From positions 124,001 through 188,000 of the forward strand of contig JABLUY010000025.1 in the NCBI GenBank assembly GCA_013306675.1: a DNA stretch of 64,000 nt, given 5' to 3'. The notes under the pieces were generated by a model that saw nothing but the letters and a program-made list of their open reading frames with translations, had not been told where the DNA came from and ran no database searches. The stretch comes from Thraustochytrium sp. TN22 (taxonomy: Eukaryota > Sar > Bigyra > Thraustochytrida > Thraustochytriidae). Both the position numbers and the translations under genes were made by a program. Of the stretch, positions 29,886-58,772 are shown piece after piece. Numbering within the stretch: position 1 is the stretch's first letter; each line of letters begins with the position of its first letter.

Positions 29886-31658
29886 ATGGACGCGGCGGCG
29901 GGAGGCGAGCCGGAGGAGGCCGAGCGCGCGCAGGGCGCGGAGGAGGAAGCGGCGACGGCGAGCACGGCGGCGGCGGCGGCGCGCGATGGCGAGGGCCGCG
30001 GCGAGGGGGAGGAAGAGGCGCGCGGGCGCGCGCTGCTGACGGCGCTGGCGGAGGCGGGCTACCCGCGAGCGCGGCTGGCCGGGCTAGCGGCATTTGACCG
30101 CGTGCTGGGCGGCCTGTGCTGGGCGATTCGCGCGAGCGGCGAGGAGGTGGACGTGGCGGCGGCCGACACGGGCGACGCGCTGTCCGTGGGGCAGCGAATC
30201 CGGCTCGCGGAGCACGTGGTGCGCGCGCTGAGGGCCATGGAGTGCCCGCACGAGCTGCAGGCGCACCAGGTGCACGGGTTCGACCTGGCGGGGCTGCGGC
30301 CCGTCGTAGAGTGGCTCTGCGGTCGCGTGCGGTCCTCGCGCAGCGCAAGGGGTCGCGCGCTGCAGCTCTCGGCGCAGCACGAGCACCTGGCGACCTCGGC
30401 GCGCCTTGCGCCGCCCTCGCCGCCGGCCGTGGGCGTCTCGGCGTCCACGCTGGAGGACAGTCTGCGACCGGAGCGCAAGTTCTGCATTGCGGACCGCCAG
30501 CCGGCCGACGACCGCGACGCCCTCGCGTGGGCGCGCGCTGTCCTGCTCGAGTTCGGCGAGCGCGTGGAGGCGCCCGACGTCGCGCTGCGCTCCGTGGACG
30601 CGGCAGACGACGACTTCGGCGTTCGCTACGCCGCAGCGGCCCAGGAGGCCGCGCGCCAGAATGACGAGGAGAACGCGCGCGCCAAGCGGCGCGAGGAGGA
30701 CCTGCTCACGCGCGCCGCACCGCCGCCGCGCCCCGCGCGCCGGCCCGAGCCGCGCAGCGCTCAGGCCGGCACGGAGCGGCACCAGCTCGAGCTGCGCCTG
30801 CAGGAGGCCGAGCAGGCCCTCGCGCGCACGCTCGCGCGCAAGGAGGCCGCGGCCGCACGCTGCGCCGCCGCCGAGGACGAGCGCGCGCAGCGGCGCGAAA
30901 ACGTCCACGCCGCGCACGCAGTCAAGCGCGAGCTGGCGCGCGACGTCAAGGCCGAGGCGCCGGACCGCACCGCGCTCCTGGAGCTCTCGGAGCTGCTCGG
31001 CGAGGTCCACCTTGTGCAGGCCGAGTCCGAGGCGGAGCGCGCTCGCCAGTCGCAGCGCTCGCGCGAGCTGCGCGACGCCCTGCAGCGCGCCACCCCCGCG
31101 GCGCCGGAGGAGCCCGCGCGCGCGGAGCCCGAGGAGGACAGTGAATTGGCGGCCACGCACGCCGCCCTCGCCCGCGAGCTCGCGCACGTGAGCCAGGAGA
31201 CCGACCGCCTCTCGCGCGAGGTCGACGCGGTGCCCACGCAGGTGGAGCTCATGCAATACGAGCGGCGCATCTTCGAGCTCTACGAGCAGCTCGCCAGCAA
31301 GCTCGAGGAGAACCGCCGCCACGTGAACACCTACAACACGCTGGAGACCATTCACGAGCTCCTGCGCAAGCAGACGTCCCTCGTGCAATCCGTCAACGAC
31401 GGCTTCCGGCTCTCGCTCAAGTCGCGCGCCGGCCGCGAAGCGCTCGTCGAGCAGCTACGCAACATTCTCCAGGGCCTGCTCTCGCAGCGCGAGCACATGC
31501 AGACCAAGCTCGACGCGGCCGTCACCGCGCAGTCCGTGAGCGAGCGCGCCTACCAGGACCTGGTGCGCCAGCAGCGGCTGTACTACAGCGCGGTGCGCGA
31601 CTTTCAGCTCGAGTGCGAGCGCCACGCGAGCCTTTCTGCGGCCGATCATGTACAATAA
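29886..31658 (+). CDS. CCDC93: CCDC93, Commander/CCC complex subunit
   Basis: 590 residues. The N-terminal calponin-like domain matches human CCDC93 closely: LLTALAEAGYPRARLAGL followed by FDRVLGGLCWAI, then SVGQRIRLAEHVVRAL, MECPHELQAHQVHGFD and PVVEWLCGRV. Human CCDC93 reads GYFRARIKGL, FDKVVGGMTWCI and CPHQLEPHQIQGMD there. The middle is Ala/Arg-rich coiled coil. The C-terminal domain is also conserved: VDAVPTQVELMQYERRIFELYEQ, YNTLETIHELL and QRLYYSAVRDFQLE. The CCC complex (CCDC22, CCDC93, COMMDs) works with retriever in endosome-to-surface recycling; its presence implies a Commander complex here. The stop codon overlaps an AATAAA word (31,655-31,660), a possible polyadenylation signal. 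Confidence 0.93.
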   Translation: MDAAAGGEPEEAERAQGAEEEAATASTAAAAARDGEGRGEGEEEARGRALLTALAEAGYPRARLAGLAAFDRVLGGLCWAIRASGEEVDVAAADTGDALSVGQRIRLAEHVVRALRAMECPHELQAHQVHGFDLAGLRPVVEWLCGRVRSSRSARGRALQLSAQHEHLATSARLAPPSPPAVGVSASTLEDSLRPERKFCIADRQPADDRDALAWARAVLLEFGERVEAPDVALRSVDAADDDFGVRYAAAAQEAARQNDEENARAKRREEDLLTRAAPPPRPARRPEPRSAQAGTERHQLELRLQEAEQALARTLARKEAAAARCAAAEDERAQRRENVHAAHAVKRELARDVKAEAPDRTALLELSELLGEVHLVQAESEAERARQSQRSRELRDALQRATPAAPEEPARAEPEEDSELAATHAALARELAHVSQETDRLSREVDAVPTQVELMQYERRIFELYEQLASKLEENRRHVNTYNTLETIHELLRKQTSLVQSVNDGFRLSLKSRAGREALVEQLRNILQGLLSQREHMQTKLDAAVTAQSVSERAYQDLVRQQRLYYSAVRDFQLECERHASLSAADHVQ

Positions 31659-42530: not shown

Positions 42531-42841
42531 GTACGGCGACCTTCGCTTCGGGAAACCACGCTCGGTCTCGCGGCGCTCTTCTCATGATTGGGCTCAAGGC
42601 AAGGCTTCCTCCGCTGTTTTAGGCCTGTTCGGCGCGTGCCACGCGCCGGTCACCGGTGATTGGTGAATCAGATAGTAGACAAGGCGACAGGACCAGCGCC
42701 GTGTGCAGTGCCAGTGCGGTGCAGTGCGTGGAGCGCTGCCGCAGTAGTAGGAGAGCGGCCTCCTCCCCTGCTCGCTCCCTCGCATCCAAAGCATGAAGCT
42801 GCAGCGCCCCCCTCCCGCCCGACCGGCTCAGCGCGCGCGCC

Positions 42842-45102
42842 ATGTCGGACGTCGCCGTCAGCGTGCGCCGCAGCCTGCGCCACAGCCTGCGCCACAGCCT
42901 CGAGAGGCGGCGCACCGCGCGCTACCTCGCGCAGGAGCGCAAGATCATCGACTACCGCAGCGTCAGCATGCGCTTGCTCGAGCGCATGCTCGAGCGCGTG
43001 CTGGACGAGTCGCTCGCGCCGGGAGTCCAGCTCTTCGTCGCGGCGCGCGACATCAACGAGCACGTCAAGGAAGGCGCCACGATCGCGCTCCTCTCACGCG
43101 CCGAGAACAGCACCACCATCCTTGGACGACAGAGTCCGCTTCACGGAGGGCGACGACGCCCGCCCCAAGCCGCGCGAGGAGTGGTTCACCGAGGACATCG
43201 CCGAGCACGTGGTGCTGCCCGCCACGATGCCCCTCCGCACGAACCAGTTCTACATCGACACCATCGCCGAAACGAGCGACATCGGCGAGCCCTTCCAGGG
43301 CCAGCCAGGCCCGCCGCTGCAGCTTCGCAGACCTCGTCGGCGCGCTCCGGGCCAGGTTCGAAGACGTGCCCCAGCAAGAGCAGTTCGTCTGGCTCGATCT
43401 CTTCTGCGCCAACCAGCCGCTCCTCACCAAGCCAGACCAGGATCTTCCCGCGGAGGTCATCGACGCGCGCAACCGCTTCCTGACGCATGGCCTCCACTTT
43501 GCCATCGCGCAGTTCACCCGCGGCACCCTCGTCTTCTTCGACCGCTGGGACGAGCCCGCGCCGCTGAAGCGCGCCTGGTGCGTCTGGGAGTTCTACGGGG
43601 CGCTTCGCGCCGGCGTGCCACTCGACGTCGTCCACGCGCCTGGCCAGGAATGGGCTTTCTTCGACCAGTTGCTCGAGGACTATGGTCAAATCGCGGTCCT
43701 CATGGCCGACAAGATGGACGCGCGCAAAGCTCAGTGCTGGAAGCCCGAGGACAAGGCCATGATCGACGAGGCGGTGGCCAGCCACCTCGCTGGCGGCTAC
43801 ACGGACGTCAACATGGCCATCCAGGGCCGCCAGCGCGCCTGGCTCCTCGAGATGGGGCTGGACATAGTCAATGAGCTGAGGCGAGACGGCGGCGACACGG
43901 AGCCGGCCGATCTTGCAAGAGCGCTCTGCCAGCTCGCCAACTTGCACTATGCGCAGGGCCGCTACGCCGAGGCGCTCCCGCTCTACGAGGAGGCGCTCGA
44001 GATCACCAAGGAAGCCCTCGGGGACCGGCACGCCTCAGTGGCCAGAACGCTCCACGAAATCGCCAATTTGCACGCTGAGCAGGGCCGCTACGCCGAGGCG
44101 CTCCCGCTCTACGAGGAGGCGCTCGAGATCTACAAGGAAGCCCTCGGGGACCGGCACGCCTACGTGGCCGCCACGCTCCACGCGATCGCCATGTTGCACT
44201 ATGAGCAGGGCCGCTACGCCGAGGCGCTCCCGCTCTACGAGGAGGCGCTCGAGATCTACAAGGAAGCCCTCGGGGACCGGCACGCCTACGTGGCCGCCAC
44301 GCTCCACGCGATCGCCATGTTGCACTATGAGCAGGGCCGCTACGCCGAGGCGCTCCCGCTCTACGAGGAGGCGCTCGAGATCTGGAAGGAAGCCCTCGGG
44401 GACCGGCACGCCGACGTGGCCGCCACGCTCCACCAGATCGCCGTCTTGCACGCTGAGCAGGGCCGCTACGCCGAGGCGCTCCCGCTCTACGAGGAGGCGC
44501 TCGAGATCTACAAGGAAGCCCTTGGGGACCGGCACGCTTATGTGGCCACCACGCTCCACCAAATCGCCAACTTGCACGCTGACCAGGGCCGCTACGCCGA
44601 GGCGCTCCCGCTCTGGGAGGAGGCGCTCGAGATCACGAAGGAAGCCCTCGGGGACCGGCACGCCGACGTGGCCACCACGCTCTGCAGTATCGCCAACGTG
44701 CTTTACGTGCAGGGCCGCTACGCCGAGGCGCTCCCGCTCTACGAGGAGGGGCTCGAGATCAGGAAGGAAGCCCTCGGGGACCGGCACGCCTCAGTGGCCA
44801 CCACGCTCCACAACATCGCCAAGTTGCACGCTGCACAGGGCCGCTACGCCGAGGCGCTCCCGCTCTACGAGGAGGCGCTCGAGATCAGGAAGGAAGCCCT
44901 CGGGGACCGGCACGCCGATGTGGCCACCACGCTCCACCAAATCGCCAACTTGCACTTACAGCAGGGCCGCTACGCCGAGGCGCTCCCGCTCTACGAGGAG
45001 GCGTTCGAGATCTACAAGGAAGCCCTTGGACCAGAGCATCCGGACACGCGAACCGCGCAAGAAAATCTGGCGGCTTGCCGCGAAGAACTCGAGGCCGCCT
45101 AG
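42842..45102 (+). CDS. TPR-repeat protein with effector-like N-terminal domain; 5' half changes frame
   Basis: Coding starts at MSDVAVSV (42842). It passes through two further frames near 43,110-43,130 and 43,310-43,325, each shift equal to one surplus base, and stays open from there to 45102. Introns do not fit, so it is either a pseudogene or carries two sequence errors. N-terminal part: a helical segment (MRLLERMLERVLDES), then WFTEDIAEHVVLPATM. The next domain (about 43,330-43,900) has FVWLDLFCANQ, FTRGTLVFFDRWDEPAPLK and RAWCVWEFYGAL, resembling domains linked to repeats in protist and fungal NLR-like proteins; the RAWCVWEF motif recalls a TIR-like EL box. Nine 42-residue kinesin-light-chain-type TPRs follow, sharing GRYAEALPLYEEALEI, then a short cap (PEHPDTRTAQENL). 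It is probably a sensing or scaffolding protein. No nucleotide-binding domain is visible. Confidence 0.7.
43915..45047 (+). repeat. Nine 126-bp tandem repeats (42-residue TPRs)
   Basis: Units share GGCCGCTACGCCGAGGCGCT almost without change. Units at 44,161 and 44,287 are nearly identical over their full length. Variation is confined to a few codons per unit, which points to recent duplication or gene conversion among units. Confidence 0.92.
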
Positions 45103-51704: not shown

Positions 51705-52114
51705 CCTCTTCGCCCCGCCCCGCGTCGCCCCGCCCCGCCCCGCCCCGCCCCGCCTCGCCTCGCCTCGCCTCGCTCGTACGGCTCGCCGTCCTCGGCGTCG
51801 TTACCCGCCGCGGGCGCGCCGCGCCAGCCGCGCCGGAGGCCGCAGGGGCACGCGCGCTCGCGGGCTGCGCGTGCGCTCGCGCCGGCCTGCCGCCGCCGCC
51901 GCCGCCGCGCCGCCCAGGTCGCCGCCCGCGCCGCCCGCCGCGCCGCAGCGGCCGCGCGAGGCGTTTCTGCTCTGCCGTGCCGGGCATGGGGGCGGCCATG
52001 GCGCCGGCGCCCGCCGCCGCCGCCGCCGCGCGGCAGAGCGCGAACGGGGCCGCTGCGCGCGGCGGGGCGCAGCGCGGCGGCGGCGGCGGCGGCGGCGGCA
52101 GCGCGCGCGGCAGG

Positions 52115-53500
52115 ATGGCCTGCGCGGCGCTGCGGCGCGGCGGCGGCGCGCGCAGGGCGCTCGCCGCGGCCGCGAGCCCGAGGTGGACGGCCACGAGCGC
52201 GACGCCGTGGAGCGCGCGGGCGACGGCGGCCAGGCCCGGCGCGGAGGGGCTGCGCAGGCCGCGCGTGCAGAGGCAGGGCTGGGCCGCGGCAGGCAGGGTG
52301 CGGTGGCTGAGCGACGAGACGCCCGCGGCGCGCAGCAGCAGCCTGAGCAGCGTGCAGGAGCTGCACAGGGAGGTGACGGGCATGGTGCAGTCGGTGCAGG
52401 CCAAGGTGGAGCGGCGCGGCGTGCGCGAGCGCCTGGCGGAGCTGACCAAGGAGCTGGCGCGAGAGGACTTGTGGGACAACCCGGACCGCGCCGGCCGCCT
52501 GAGCCGCGAGCACGCGGCGCTCGCGGACACGGTCAGCAAGCTCGACGGCTTCTCCACCTCCATCGAGAACGCGCTCGAGATGGCCGCGCTCGCGGACGAG
52601 GAGGGCGAGACGCAGGTCGTGGGCGACTGCCTCGAAGACCTGGAGGAGATTCACAAGCAGCTGCAGCGCTTCCACCTCAGCATGCTCTTGGACCACCCGG
52701 CCGACAAGCTCGGCTGCATGTTCGAGCTTGCCGCCGGCGCCGGCGGCACCGAGTCCTGCGACTGGACCGAGATGCTCCTGGAAATGTACCGCCGCTGGGC
52801 GGAGCAGTCCGGCTACTCGGCCACGGTCGTGGAGACCTCGCCCGGCACCGAGGCCGGCTTGCGCTCCGCCACTTTGCACGTGCGCGGGCTCAACGCGTAT
52901 GGCTGGGCCAAGGCCGAGACCGGCGTGCACCGCATGGTGCGCATCTCCGAGTACGACACCAACGGCCGCCGCCAGACCTGCTTTGCGCAGGTCAGCGTGC
53001 TGCCGCTCATGGAGGAGGACGACGAGGAGAACGCCAAGATGATCGAGATCGACCCGGCCGACCTCAAGATCGACACCTACCGCGCCTCTGGCGCCGGCGG
53101 CCAGCACGTCAACACCACCGAGTCCGCCGTGCGCATCACGCACTTGCCCACTGGCGTCATTGCGCAGTCCCAGGCGGAGCGATCTCAGCACCGCAACAAG
53201 GCCACCGCCATGTCCACGCTGCGCTCGCGCCTGCTCGAGCGCCGCCTGCAGGCCGAGCGCGACGCGCGACGCGCGCAGCGCAGCTCTCTTGGCGACAACG
53301 CCTGGGGCAACCAGATCCGCTCCTACGTGCTGCACCCGTACAAGCTCGTCAAGGACCATCGCACCAACCACGAGACGCCCCAGGCGCTCGCCGTGCTCCG
53401 CGGCGAGCCGGACTTTCTCACCCCCTTTATGGAGGCCTACCTCGCGCAGACGGCCACCGACGACGACGTCGCCGCGCCCGTCGGGTCAGCCGAGCCCTGA
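52115..53500 (+). CDS. Organellar peptide chain release factor 2-type, altered codon-recognition loop
   Basis: From MACAALRRGG at 52115 the product is 461 residues; an upstream Met at 51977 is in frame through GC-only sequence. The Ala/Arg-rich leader to about residue 75 ends VRWLSDE, a plausible mitochondrial processing site. The rest is an RF2-type factor: ELTKELAREDLWDNPDRAGRL, AGAGGTESCDWTEMLLEMY, RMVRISEYDTNGRRQTCF, and the catalytic GGQ in YRASGAGGQHVNTTESAVRI, then RSQHRNKATAMSTLRSRL and WGNQIRSYVLHPYKLVKD. The tripeptide that reads the stop codon in RF2, SPF, is replaced by SEY. Hydrolysis should work but stop-codon choice may differ. No bacterial-type +1 frameshift site is present. 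Mitochondrion is more likely than plastid. Confidence 0.85.
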   Translation: MACAALRRGGGARRALAAAASPRWTATSATPWSARATAARPGAEGLRRPRVQRQGWAAAGRVRWLSDETPAARSSSLSSVQELHREVTGMVQSVQAKVERRGVRERLAELTKELAREDLWDNPDRAGRLSREHAALADTVSKLDGFSTSIENALEMAALADEEGETQVVGDCLEDLEEIHKQLQRFHLSMLLDHPADKLGCMFELAAGAGGTESCDWTEMLLEMYRRWAEQSGYSATVVETSPGTEAGLRSATLHVRGLNAYGWAKAETGVHRMVRISEYDTNGRRQTCFAQVSVLPLMEEDDEENAKMIEIDPADLKIDTYRASGAGGQHVNTTESAVRITHLPTGVIAQSQAERSQHRNKATAMSTLRSRLLERRLQAERDARRAQRSSLGDNAWGNQIRSYVLHPYKLVKDHRTNHETPQALAVLRGEPDFLTPFMEAYLAQTATDDDVAAPVGSAEP

Positions 53501-54023
53501 CCATGATTGACAGTGAGACCCGCCCTGCATGCATGCATGCCTGGCGCTCCCGCTCTGCTCTGCCGATGGTGCAGCGCTGTGGCCGCCTGGGTTCGCTTCG
53601 TAGCGCACGAGGCCTCTAGCTAGCTAGTAGTCATCTCCTGATGTGAGTGCGACCCCTCCGACAGTCACGGACAGCCTTGCATTGCGCTCTCGGAATCGCG
53701 CGCCTCGCAGGTCTTGCAGTCGGTATCCGCGTGATCCCAGCCACACGAGCGCCCAGGGCCTTCTCGGACTTGGTTTCCGTCCCCGCGTCCAGCTCGTTGT
53801 CGGAGCTCTCGCGCGCTCGACCGCCCGGGTTCCCGCTCCTCCGATGGCAGCCCCGCCGCCGACCCGCCGTGGTAGTACCTGCAGTACAGCGAGCCCGGCA
53901 TGACGCGGCGCACGCCGAGGCGCCATACTGGCGGCGGCAGACGTGCAACGCCCGGGCCCAGCCCGCGGCGGTCGCGCGGGGCGCGGCGGCGGCAGCGGCG
54001 GCGGCGGCGGCGGCGGCGGCAGG
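53501..54023. promoter_or_regulatory. Intergenic region upstream of the kinesin gene
   Basis: About 520 bp between two plus-strand genes. Short CATGCATGCATG (53,527-53,542) and CTAGCTAGCTAG (53,614-53,628) repeats follow the RF2 stop. A GGCGGCGG run (53,990-54,020) directly precedes the kinesin start. No gene is recognised. Confidence 0.4.
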
Positions 54024-57000
54024 ATGGCGGCCGCGGAGGAGGGCTCCGCGGAGTACTGGCGGCAGACGGCCGCGCAGCGGCAGGCGGAGCTGGACGAGTT
54101 CATGGAGTCGAGCAAGGAGCTGGAGGAGGCGCTCGAGAGCGAGCTCGCCGCCAGCGAAGAACGCGTGACCAGCCTGCAGCGGGAGGTGGAGCGGCGGAGC
54201 GAGGAGCTGGAGCAGGCGCGCGCCAAGAGCGCGGAGGCAGGACCGCGAATGCTGGCGCTGGAGGAGAAGGCGCGCAAGATGGAGGCCGACCTGGCCGCCG
54301 CGCAGACGCGGGCGCGCACGCTCGAGACCGACAACGACGAGCTCGAGCGCAAGCTGCGCGCTGCCGAGGCCTCTGCTGAGGACATCAAGCACCAACTCGA
54401 GCACCAGATGGAGCAGAACGTCTTCTTGCAGGAGGAGCTCGACCAGGCTGCAGACGCTCAGCAGCGGCTTCGCGCCGAGCTCCAGGAGGCACAATCGGAG
54501 GCCGCCGCCAGCGCCGCCCGCCAGGACGCCGGCCAGGACCAGGCGGCTCGCGATGCCGAGGCTGGCCTCGCCGCCGCGCGTCAGCAGGTCGCGGACCTCG
54601 AGGCGCAGCTTCGCTCCGTGCGCGAAGATCTTGACCTGGAGCGCGCTTCTGCCGCAGCGGCCCGCGACGGCCATGCGCAACAGGCACAGCAGGCGCAGCA
54701 GGCGCAGCAGTCGCAGAGTGAGGGAGTCGAGGGCGTGCGCAAGCAGCTCGCAGAGATGGAGGCCAAGGCGCAGCAGAACACCGAGCTGCTCGCCAAAGCA
54801 CAGCAGGAGGCCGATGCACTGCGCAAGCAGCTCGCAGAGGTGGAAGCCAAGCTACAGGAGCAGGCGCGGCAAGGCGGCGACCGCCTCGCCGAGGCCCAAA
54901 AAGAGGCCGAGGCCCTGCGCAAGCAGCTTGCCGAGGCGAGCGCCGAGCTGCAGGAGCAGGCGCGGCAAGGCGGCGGCCGCCTCGACGAAGCGCAGAAAGA
55001 GGCCGAGGCCCTGCGCAAGCAGCTTGCCGAGGCGAACGCCGAGATGCAGGAGCAGGCGCGGCAAGGCGGTGACCGCCTCGACGAAGCGCAGAAAGAGGCC
55101 GAGGCCCTGCGCAAGCAGCTTGCCGAGGCGAACGCCAAGCTGCAACAGGCCAGACAGGACTCGGAAGCTGCTCAGGGCTCCCAGGGTGAGGTGATCGCCG
55201 AGGCCCGCGAGGAGGCGGAGAGCCTGCGCACTTTGCTCGCCGAAGCCAACTCCAGGCTGCAGAAAGCGCAGCAAGACTCGGAGACCCTGCAAGCGTCCCA
55301 AGGCGAAGTGCTTGCCAAGGCGCAGGAGGAAGTCGAGAGTCTGCGCGCGCAGTTGAACGAGGCGAGTGCCAAGCTGCAGCAGGCCCGGCAGGATTCGGAG
55401 GCCTCACAAAGCTCGCAGGGCGAGGTCCTTGCCAAGGCGCAGCAGGAGGCGGAGAGCTTGCGTGAGCAGCTGGCCGTGGCCGACGGCAAGCTGCAGCAGG
55501 GCCAGCAGGACTCGGAAGCCGCCCAGAGCGTGCTCGCCAAGGCGCAGGAGGAGGCCAGGGAGCTCCAGACCCGGCTCGCCGAGACCGAAGCGGAGCTGCG
55601 ACAGGCGGAGGAGAGGTCTGGGGCCATGGAGAAGCAAATGGTGGACTCCGCCGGGGCCCAGGGCGAGCTGCTGAGCAGCGCTCAAGAGGAGGCCAAGGCG
55701 CTCCGCGAGGAGTTGGCGGCCACGCGGGCCAAGGCGCAGCAGGGTGCCGAGGAGCTGGCGGCCGCGCAGGCCAAGCTAGAGCAGGCGGAGCAGACCGCCG
55801 CGGCGCTGCAGAGGCAGGTTGCGGACGCGGCCGGGGCTCAGGGCGAGCTGCTAAGCAGTGCCCAGGCGGAGGCGAAGCGTCTGCGCGAGGAGCTGGCGGC
55901 CGCGCAGGTCGCAGCGCAGCAGGGCGCAGAGCAGCTGGCCGTCGCGCAAGCCGAGGCCCACGAGGGCACCGAGAAGCTTGCGGCCGCTCAGGCGGAGGCG
56001 CGAGAGAGTGCGGAGAAGCTGGTGGCGGCGCAGGCCAGGGTGGAGGAAGCCTCGCAGGAGGCGCAAAAGGGTGTCGAGGAGCTGGCGGCGACCCGGGCGC
56101 AGCTGCAGTCGTCGCAGCAGGAGGCCGAGACGCGACTGCAGCAGGCGCAGGAGGAGGCAGAGAGCCTGCGGCGGCAGCTGGCCGAGGCCGGCGGCGCGCA
56201 CAACGAGGAGCTGGTCAAGGCCCGCGAGGCGGTGGAGGCTCTGCGCAAGGAGCTTGAGGAGGCGTCAGAGGCGCAGCGCGAGGCCGCGGCGGCGCAGGAG
56301 GAGGCCCGCATGGCGCACGCGTTGGTGGAGGAGCTCAAGCGCGACCTGCAGCACCTGGGCGCGGTGCAGGAGGAGCTGCTGACGGCGAACGACGCGACGG
56401 CGGCGGCCGAGCGGGCCCGCGCCGCGGCGGAGGCGGAGCTGGAGGCGCTGCGCGCGGAGCGCGGCGCGGCCGGCGCCGCGGACCGCGAGATGCAGGCGGA
56501 GCTGGAGCAGGCCCTGCAGGAGGTGGCGCGGCTGCGGACGGAGTCGGCGAACCTGGAGGTGGAGCTGGTGGAGACGCGCGCCGCGGCGGACTCGAGCAAG
56601 GCGGAGGAGAAGGTCTTCGCCGCGGCGCTGGAAGAGGAGCGGCAGCTGGCCGCGACGCAGGTGGAGGAGGCGCGGGCGGGGCTGGAGGCGGCGCGCGAGG
56701 CTCTGGCGCAGGAGCAGCGCACCGTTGCGAGCCTGCGACAGCAGCTGGGCGAGGCCGGCGAGCAGCTCGAGCACGAGCGCGCGTCGCAGCGCGCGCTGCA
56801 GTCGACGTCGGCGCTGCCAGCGGACGTGGAGAGCCTGCGCGCGGCGTACGCGGCGCAGCTGCGCACGAACTCGTCGCTGCTGACGCGCATGCAAAAGATG
56901 CGGGGCAACATCCTGGTGTGCTGCCGCATTCGGCCGGCTCTGGAGCACGAAGGCGCGGGCGCGCGCGCCGCGCCTGCGGTGGCGGCGCTGAGCTCAGAGG

Positions 57001-58772
57001 AGGTGACCTTCCAGAACGAGAAGACCAACACGGTGCGGCCGTTCGCCTTTGACCGCGTGTTCTCGCCGGCGACGACGCAGGCGCAGCTCAACAACGAGAT
57101 CTCGGCGTTGGGCATGGCCGAGTCCGTGGTGGGCGGCACGAACGCATGCATCATGGCGTACGGCCAGACGGGCAGCGGCAAGACGTTCACCATGGACGGG
57201 CCGGAGGACAACCCGGGCGTGAACGCGCGCGCGATCCGGCGCGTCTTCGAGCTGACGCGCATGCTGGAGGGCTCGGGCCAGTCCTCCTACAAGGTGCGGC
57301 TGGCGATGATGGAGATTTACAACGAGGAGGTCCGCGACCTGCTGGCGTCAGGTGTGCCCGAGGCGCAGCTTCGACGAGCGGCGTCGTCGCGGCCCGCCGC
57401 GACCTCGTCGGCCTCAGCGAACGGCGGCGGGGCGCCGCCTTCGCCGGGCGGCGGGGACCTGGACGACTCCGCCTCCGTGGTGTCGACGGCCACCTCGGCG
57501 ACGCTGGCGTCTCGCGTGGGCGGCAGCTCGCGCGTCGGCGGTGCTTCCGGCGTGCGGCGCACGAGGGCGCTGGGGCTGCCCGAGGTGCACTGGGTAACGT
57601 GCACGAGCCCGGAGCGCGTGGACGAGGTGCTGAGCGTGGGCCGTGCGAACCGGTCGACGGCCGCCACGGACCTGAACGAGCACAGCTCGCGGTCGCACCT
57701 CATTATAATCCTGGAGGTGACGGCGCAGTCGGCGGACGAGGTGCAGATGAGCGCGACGGGTCGCCTGTACCTGGTGGACCTGGCCGGGTCGGAGCGCGTG
57801 TCCAAGTCCAAGGTGGAGGGCTCGCGGCTGGACGAGACCAAGCACATTAATCGCTCGCTGGCGGCGCTGGGCGACGTCATGGAGGCGCTCGACAGCAAGG
57901 AGCGCAACCGGCACGTGCCGTACCGCAACTCGAAGCTGACGCACCTGCTGCAGCCCGTGCTGGGCGGCAGCGCGCGCACCATGCTCATCCTCACGGTGCC
58001 GCCGACGCCCAGCAGCGCGCAGGAGACGCTCTTCTCGATGCAGTTCGCGGCGCGCGCGCGGAACATCGAGCTGGGCCCGGCCAAGCGTCGCGTCCAGGTC
58101 AAGGGCGCGCTGGCCGAGCTGCAGGCGCTCAAGGCGCAGGCCGGCGAGCTCAAGGCCGCCAAGCAGCGCGCAGAGGCGAAGATGGCCGACCTTAAGCGCA
58201 AGCTGCACCTCACCGAGCAGGCCATGTCGGCCATCAAGTCGGAGGGTACCAAGAAGGAGGACGCCCTGCGCAAGCGCACCGACCGCGAGGCGCAGCAGGT
58301 CGTCAAGGAGGTCGCCGACCTGCGCACCAAGCTCGCCTCCACGCGCAAGTCCCTCAAGGAGGCCAAGGCGGAGCTCGAAGCCGAGCGCCGCCGCGTCAAG
58401 GCTGAGCACCGCTCCATGTCTCAGGCTAACGTCGCCGCCGAGCGCCGCGTGCAGGAGATGCAGGTCATGCTTGACAAGCAGCGCGCCGAGCTCCTGCGCT
58501 TGCGCTCCACCGTCGCCGAGCGCGAAAATGCATCCTCGGAGCACAATCGCTCCACGCGGCGCCACGCCGAGAACGGCCACGCTCGGGCGCCGCCGGCACC
58601 GCCTGCCCCTGCCGCTGCCGCTGCCCCTGCCGCTGCGGCGCCGCCTCCTGCAGCGGCAAGCGCGGCTGCGACGGGACGCAGCCGCTCGAGCACGAGCAGT
58701 ACCACTAGCGTGTCGACCACCGCTACCGGGAGGTTTAGGTCGATGATTCCGAAACCTTCCTCCTCGCGATAA
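54024..58772 (+). CDS. NudE/NDE1-like coiled coil fused to a kinesin-14-type motor
   Basis: 1,582 residues from MAAAEEGSAE (an upstream Met at 53943 adds only Gly-rich sequence). Residues 1-150 match NDE1/NDEL1: EYWRQTAAQRQAELDEFMES aligns with human [20 protein letters not shown], and TDNDELERKLRAAEASAEDI then QNVFLQEELDQ aligns with ANDDLERAKRATIMSLEDF and RNAFLESELDE. Residues 150-955 are coiled coil with 32-residue repeats. The motor starts at MRGNILVCCRIRP (about 958), with P-loop AYGQTGSGKT (about 1044), switch I NEHSSRSH (about 1217) and switch II LVDLAGSERVSKSK (about 1248). The neck before the motor is kinesin-14-like, so minus-end motion is expected. A roughly 75-residue Ser/Gly insertion (about 1115-1190) sits in the motor. 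Coiled coil and an Ala/Ser tail follow. NDE1 binds LIS1 and dynein. Confidence 0.9.
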   Translation: MAAAEEGSAEYWRQTAAQRQAELDEFMESSKELEEALESELAASEERVTSLQREVERRSEELEQARAKSAEAGPRMLALEEKARKMEADLAAAQTRARTLETDNDELERKLRAAEASAEDIKHQLEHQMEQNVFLQEELDQAADAQQRLRAELQEAQSEAAASAARQDAGQDQAARDAEAGLAAARQQVADLEAQLRSVREDLDLERASAAAARDGHAQQAQQAQQAQQSQSEGVEGVRKQLAEMEAKAQQNTELLAKAQQEADALRKQLAEVEAKLQEQARQGGDRLAEAQKEAEALRKQLAEASAELQEQARQGGGRLDEAQKEAEALRKQLAEANAEMQEQARQGGDRLDEAQKEAEALRKQLAEANAKLQQARQDSEAAQGSQGEVIAEAREEAESLRTLLAEANSRLQKAQQDSETLQASQGEVLAKAQEEVESLRAQLNEASAKLQQARQDSEASQSSQGEVLAKAQQEAESLREQLAVADGKLQQGQQDSEAAQSVLAKAQEEARELQTRLAETEAELRQAEERSGAMEKQMVDSAGAQGELLSSAQEEAKALREELAATRAKAQQGAEELAAAQAKLEQAEQTAAALQRQVADAAGAQGELLSSAQAEAKRLREELAAAQVAAQQGAEQLAVAQAEAHEGTEKLAAAQAEARESAEKLVAAQARVEEASQEAQKGVEELAATRAQLQSSQQEAETRLQQAQEEAESLRRQLAEAGGAHNEELVKAREAVEALRKELEEASEAQREAAAAQEEARMAHALVEELKRDLQHLGAVQEELLTANDATAAAERARAAAEAELEALRAERGAAGAADREMQAELEQALQEVARLRTESANLEVELVETRAAADSSKAEEKVFAAALEEERQLAATQVEEARAGLEAAREALAQEQRTVASLRQQLGEAGEQLEHERASQRALQSTSALPADVESLRAAYAAQLRTNSSLLTRMQKMRGNILVCCRIRPALEHEGAGARAAPAVAALSSEEVTFQNEKTNTVRPFAFDRVFSPATTQAQLNNEISALGMAESVVGGTNACIMAYGQTGSGKTFTMDGPEDNPGVNARAIRRVFELTRMLEGSGQSSYKVRLAMMEIYNEEVRDLLASGVPEAQLRRAASSRPAATSSASANGGGAPPSPGGGDLDDSASVVSTATSATLASRVGGSSRVGGASGVRRTRALGLPEVHWVTCTSPERVDEVLSVGRANRSTAATDLNEHSSRSHLIIILEVTAQSADEVQMSATGRLYLVDLAGSERVSKSKVEGSRLDETKHINRSLAALGDVMEALDSKERNRHVPYRNSKLTHLLQPVLGGSARTMLILTVPPTPSSAQETLFSMQFAARARNIELGPAKRRVQVKGALAELQALKAQAGELKAAKQRAEAKMADLKRKLHLTEQAMSAIKSEGTKKEDALRKRTDREAQQVVKEVADLRTKLASTRKSLKEAKAELEAERRRVKAEHRSMSQANVAAERRVQEMQVMLDKQRAELLRLRSTVAERENASSEHNRSTRRHAENGHARAPPAPPAPAAAAAPAAAAPPPAAASAAATGRSRSSTSSTTSVSTTATGRFRSMIPKPSSSR
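54800..55150 (+). repeat. 96-bp tandem repeats in the kinesin coiled coil
   Basis: Three near-identical 96-bp units encode 32 residues each (ALRKQLAEANAE and QEQARQGGDRL, with EAQKEAE between). Less similar units (QARQDSEA, QGEVLAKAQEEAESL) continue to about 55,560. The in-register heptads keep the rod intact. Confidence 0.85.

Follow-up and report, generated by a model that had tools for sequence, protein, structure and literature searches.

The window analyzed here, a stretch of 64,000 nucleotides from Thraustochytrium sp. TN22, contains a long gene in which a coiled coil resembling that of the NudE proteins NDE1 and NDEL1 is followed by a long stalk, a kinesin-14-type motor, a basic post-motor region and a tail. 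The uninterrupted frame runs from 54024 to 58772 and comprises 1582 codons with no internal stop. It is open from 53904, with an in-frame TGA at 53901 as the nearest upstream stop; the first in-frame ATG is at 54024 and the stop codon at 58770-58772. The features of the gene are as follows:

54024-58772, + strand: fusion gene, single open frame of 1582 aa, with a NudE-type coiled coil followed by a long coil, a kinesin-14 motor and a tail
54024-54503, + strand: NDE1/NDEL1-like N-terminal coiled coil, residues 1-160 (phmmer against the PDB, reverse searches, shuffles, AlphaFold2)
54051-54173, + strand: segment aligned with the dynein intermediate-chain-binding part of NDEL1, residues 10-50, with E34 at the position of NDEL1 E48 (alignment)
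54315-54449, + strand: LIS1-binding-type block, residues 98-142, with E101 at the position of E119 and R112 at that of R130 (alignment to NDEL1)
54504-56888, + strand: long coiled-coil stalk, residues 161-955 (translation)
54789-55520, + strand: tandem arrays within the stalk, with 96-bp (32-codon) and 117-bp (39-codon) units (repeat analysis)
56901-58073, + strand: kinesin-14-type motor, residues 960-1350 (Pfam, PDB search, tree)
56901, 57162, 57675 and 57777, + strand: motor landmarks, i.e. RGN neck junction, P-loop, switch I and switch II, respectively
57345-57578, + strand: Ser/Gly-rich insertion in the motor, about residues 1108-1185, separating the two stretches matched by Pfam kinesin (boundaries set by inspection)
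58074-58523, + strand: post-motor basic coiled-coil-like region, residues 1351-1500 (inspection)
58740-58751, + strand: SMIP, a candidate EB1-binding motif of the SxIP type, residues 1573-1576 (sequence)

Of 14 successive 120-codon windows, 13 have a third-position GC of 0.80-0.97 and the last, which is short, has 0.68; the values are high in the NudE-like part, the join and the motor alike. Because third-position GC is high in successive windows, the frame looks coding throughout, and the claim of the first-pass annotation that the coil and the motor share one open frame holds. Two genes, one for NudE and one for a kinesin-14, that are separate in the cell could have been misassembled or misread as one, e.g. 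across the repeats at 54789-55520. Tandem arrays do lie between the NudE-like part and the motor, and the sequence comes from a single assembly. Against this stand the length of the stop-free frame, the third-position GC that stays high through the join, the presence of the NudE match and the motor on one contig and in one frame, and a genome in which no other NudE-like piece was found among the candidates scored (see below). We consider such an artifact very improbable.

Upstream of the fusion gene and in the same orientation, the nearest gene identified, at 51977-53500, encodes a peptide chain release factor (PCRF, 6.2e-49; RF-1, 5.5e-40), which is probably organellar. Also on the + strand, the window encodes a CCDC93 homologue with both Pfam domains (29886-31658; 3e-40 and 1.4e-31) and a protein with many TPR repeats (42793-45102; TPR_12, 8.1e-134; nephrocystin-3 TPR, 1.6e-67).

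The N-terminal coiled coil

The first-pass annotation had aligned the N-terminus by eye with the coiled coil of NDE1/NDEL1. When residues 1-160 were compared with 177,635 distinct PDB sequences using phmmer, 19 matches were obtained up to E 10. The best is NDEL1 (2v71; E 1.4e-9, over residues 12-156), followed by NDEL1 (2v66; 1.5e-5) and NDE1 (7e1t; 2.7e-5), while the best coil outside the NudE family is the ATP synthase b subunit (1.7e-3), with tropomyosins next.

For reverse searches, the NDEL1 stretch from the PDB alignment served as query. Among 1025 open frames of at least 100 aa from the window and 40 loci (HMMER default filters), the fusion gene is the sole match; it appears twice among these frames, once from the window and once from locus L011, which is a copy of the same place. 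The genome, comprising 37.9 Mb in 453 contigs, was searched with no intron handling and with scoring of the best candidates only. Here, the NDEL1 stretch finds the fusion gene first (3.2e-8) and a runner-up at 0.0078 (8 matches up to E 10 from 14 candidates scored), while residues 1-160 give 10 matches from 58 scored candidates, the best after the self-match having an E of 0.026. Thus, no second NudE-like coil was seen among the genome candidates scored with either query (58 with residues 1-160 and 14 with the NDEL1 stretch). The runner-up, locus L055, was considered as a second NudE and rejected because it matches the Pfam family CCDC113_CCDC96_CC at 2.4e-36. A scan of IMG/VR for relatives of residues 1-160 gave 32 pattern matches, 0 of which were confirmed.

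The gene could alternatively encode an ordinary kinesin-14 with no link to LIS1 or dynein, in which the stalk is NudE-like merely as an acidic Ala/Glu/Leu-rich coiled coil. In favor of this explanation, identity to NDEL1 over the alignment is 34%, Pfam matches residues 1-160 to 20 weak coil families of which none is over the cut-off, and Pfam and NCBIfam searches with the whole protein return generic coils only for the NudE-like part and nothing over the cut-off except kinesin families. The top NCBIfam match, SMC_prok_B, reaches 58.5 bits at a cut-off of 567 and has its best stretch on residues 6-202, so that the NudE-like region also resembles a generic coil; along the stalk, NCBIfam gives SMC/Rad50-type coil matches only, far below cut-off. 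The Pfam NudE family, NUDE_C, is absent from the matches of the fusion protein up to E 1, and it has no match in the genome in a search in which no control gave a signal either, so that we claim no absence. Because NUDE_C describes what we take to be the C-terminal half of NudE, this family is not applicable as a test of residues 1-160.

Several controls argue against the ordinary stalk. Of 72 windows of 160 aa taken along the protein, six pass the inclusion threshold against NDEL1, all of them starting at residues 1-101, and the remaining 66 fail, with the next at E 0.027. In 4000 shuffles, half of them plain and half heptad-preserving (2000 each), the best score is 13.9 bits compared to 38.9 for the real sequence, and the reversed sequence scores -1.0. 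Moreover, NDEL1 and NDE1 outrank the other coils in the PDB, NDEL1 and the fusion gene are reciprocal best matches, and three residues implicated in partner binding are kept, as described below. We therefore regard an ordinary stalk as rather improbable, and homology of residues 1-160 to the N-terminal coiled coil of NDEL1 is supported by these sequence comparisons, in agreement with the alignment made by eye. AlphaFold2 predicts residues 1-175 to form one helix (3-174; mean pLDDT 90.8); Foldseek finds no match with this model, a result that is uninformative for one helix.

Identity to NDEL1 is 21 of 45 residues in the block around the E/R pair and 15 of 36 in the first 36 aligned residues. 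The alignment places E34, E101 and R112 at the positions of NDEL1 E48, E119 and R130; this numbering takes residue 58 as the start of structure 2v66, and the distance between the E and the R of the pair is consistent with it. In the fusion protein, as in the NudE family (NDE1/NDEL1, yeast Ndl1, Aspergillus NudE), an N-terminal coiled coil of ~145 residues thus carries equivalents of all three residues. In NDEL1, LIS1 binding is reported to depend on E119 and R130, and dynein binding on a set of glutamates near the N-terminus (PMC10511499), and the substitution E48A is reported to inhibit binding of the intermediate chain (PMC9041303). The LIS1-binding pair is also numbered E116/R127 in the literature, with identical spacing. 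Unlike NDE1/NDEL1, in which NUDE_C would follow, the fusion protein goes on with an extended stalk and then a kinesin motor.

Motor, stalk and tail

The Pfam kinesin motor family PF00225 matches the fusion protein with E 3.5e-91, the ATPase motifs GQTGSGKT, NEHSSRSH and DLAGSE are intact, and the motor is preceded by a GN neck junction, MRGNILVCCRIRP, the N of which is presumably the counterpart of N340 in Ncd, a residue required for minus-end-directed movement. Against the PDB, the first 18 of the best 60 of 136 matches are KIFC3, Kar3, Ncd and KCBP, which we take to be kinesin-14s, with two of the 18 being engineered Ncd/kinesin-1 chimeras. The best match is KIFC3 (243.6 bits), and kinesin-1 enters the ranking at row 19, above KIFC1 (1.1e-51). 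In a tree of 28 rows, comprising the fusion motor, 25 of the 62 other kinesin matches in the genome, KIFC3 and Kar3, the fusion motor falls into a 10-row clade together with KIFC3, Kar3 and seven genome kinesins with a C-terminal motor (support 100/99); one frame labelled as having a C-terminal motor, L060, lies outside this clade. These data support that the motor is of the kinesin-14 type, and they bear out the earlier description of an intact motor with a kinesin-14-like neck.

The place of the fusion motor among the kinesin-14s has a support of 89/50, and its branch is long (2.1). After EIYNEEVRDLL, the motor contains the Ser/Gly-rich insertion of ~75 residues, the site of which may face the microtubule. 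Because of the long branch, this placement and the insertion, motility of the motor is not assured. The genome holds 64 kinesin-family matches, two of which are the fusion gene; this is a large set for 38 Mb, and many of the motors are whole in one frame. Outside the window, the contig carries a further kinesin-14 with a C-terminal motor (L056, G000:C177:84500-89500).

Within the stalk, the repeat units of 32 and 39 codons are not multiples of seven, and the 32-codon unit contains Gly-Gly; the arrays may interrupt the coil or serve as hinges. At the other end of the protein, the C-terminal tail is proline/alanine-rich, then serine-rich, ending GRFRSMIPKPSSSR. The protein has no [ST]xIP other than SMIP; the surroundings of this motif are basic and serine-rich, without acidic residues, and the last 82 residues have a net charge of +7. 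An [ST]xIP arises by chance in 3.9% of 20,000 shuffles of the tail. An EB1 domain is encoded in the genome (5.5e-10). The kinesin-14 KIFC1 is reported to bind EB1 via SxIP and to interact with dynactin p150 (PMC7737607).

LIS1 and dynein genes in the genome

The genome encodes LIS1 at a locus (L053) of 453 codons including the stop, which aligns over 1-448 with the PAFAH1B subunit in the PDB, presumably LIS1 (3.5e-119), and on which the family LisH_PAC1 scores above its cut-off. The WD-40 repeat protein 2ymu totals higher than LIS1 on this locus when summed over six repeat stretches; the best full-length match is LIS1. The equivalents of LIS1 R316 and W340 are present as R355 and W379. Mutation of R316/W340 is reported to strongly reduce or eliminate complexes with NDEL1, and both residues also serve dynein binding (PMC10511499).

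A survey of dynein heavy chain genes in the genome gave 20 matches from 18 loci. Classification covers two of the 18 loci, i.e. the pair that branches apart from the rest: L036 is cytoplasmic dynein-1 (E 4.2e-251 to DYNC1H1; 839 bits vs 383 to DYNC2H1) and L033 is dynein-2 (847 bits to DYNC2H1). A dynein light intermediate chain (DLIC) is also encoded. For dynactin p150 and for Dynein_IC2 the genome gave no match, in searches in which no control gave a signal, and we claim absence for neither. The presence of dynein-2 together with the 16 heavy chains outside the two classified suggests that the organism builds flagella. Because dynein-1 is encoded in the same genome, with LIS1 and 18 heavy-chain loci in all, the suggestion that the fusion might stand in for reduced dynein is not supported, and substitution for a missing dynein is not the explanation.

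A candidate link between dynein loading and a kinesin-14

Based on these comparisons, we suggest that the gene product is a kinesin-14 that incorporates a LIS1/dynein-recruiting coiled coil of the NudE type, a reading that we consider probable. In this model, the fusion protein would dimerize via its stalk. Binding of its tail to EB1 would bring it to the plus ends of microtubules, the sites of LIS1 and dynein delivery and loading, and the kinesin-14 motor would then step or slide toward the minus end. With a motor in place of the classical C-terminal half of NudE, dynein loading and kinesin-14 activity would be combined in one molecule. While the homologies are read from the sequence itself, binding, direction and coupling are what we infer from them. 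That the protein links the regulation of dynein to a minus-end kinesin, as had been proposed along with the substitution rejected above, is a reasonable suggestion in view of the equivalents of the three contact residues and the presence of LIS1 and dynein-1 genes.

Alternatively, a genuine NudE part may have been reused as a dimerizing or cargo-binding coil with dynein regulation lost, leaving a kinesin-14 that works at the spindle or at plus ends in the manner of KIFC1. The SxIP tail, as in KIFC1, fits this scenario, as does the lack of matches to NUDE_C, p150 and Dynein_IC2, three families for which no control gave a signal. By contrast, the fusion protein keeps E34, E101 and R112, and LIS1 keeps the residues that contact NDEL1; the latter is weak evidence against a reused coil because the same residues serve dynein binding. 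Overall, we find loss of dynein regulation unlikely. If instead the NudE-type coil in the kinesin-14 recruits LIS1 and dynein, a more far-reaching proposal can be made, to which we give somewhat less than even weight: this would be a lineage without a separate NudE, in which the only LIS1/dynein-loading coil sits on an EB1-tracking kinesin-14, tying dynein activation obligatorily to a second minus-end motor at plus ends.

The fusion is best read, at the level of sequence, as a new domain architecture made from known parts. Like other kinesin-14s (KIFC3, KIFC1/HSET, Ncd, Kar3), the protein has the motor, the GN neck junction and a pre-motor stalk, and it has a candidate SxIP motif of the type reported for KIFC1. 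Unlike these proteins, it has a NudE-type N-terminus, for which the best other genome candidate scored only E 0.026, as well as ~230 residues after the motor and a Ser/Gly-rich insertion within it. Its layout is also similar to that of the plant KCH kinesin-14 OsKCH2, which is described as having an N-terminal binding domain and a central motor (PMC5852081); however, the N-terminal domain of OsKCH2 binds actin, while that of the fusion is of the dynein-cofactor type. Moreover, land plants are without cytoplasmic dynein, whereas the fusion-bearing genome has dynein-1.

Among the matches listed in a search of the open-access literature by titles and abstract openings, with most subscription papers outside it, none names a NudE-kinesin fusion. 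A survey of 1624 kinesins reports 105 domain architectures, the majority confined to a single organism (PMC2867816). As a class, odd fusions of kinesins are thus no rarity, and a NudE-kinesin-14 fusion is unusual for what is fused. The same survey is described as relying on Pfam/CDD (PMC2867816), and Pfam at least misses the NudE-type N-terminus of the fusion protein.

How NudE and LIS1 load dynein is an active question, and NDEL1 and dynein are reported to compete for the same surface of LIS1 (PMC10511499). If the loading coil is naturally fused to a kinesin-14, the product would count as a "Rosetta stone" protein, from which dynein activation and kinesin-14 are predicted to be functionally linked. 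Such a link would be directly testable in dynein-bearing organisms, where the interaction between KIFC1 and p150 has already been reported (PMC7737607).
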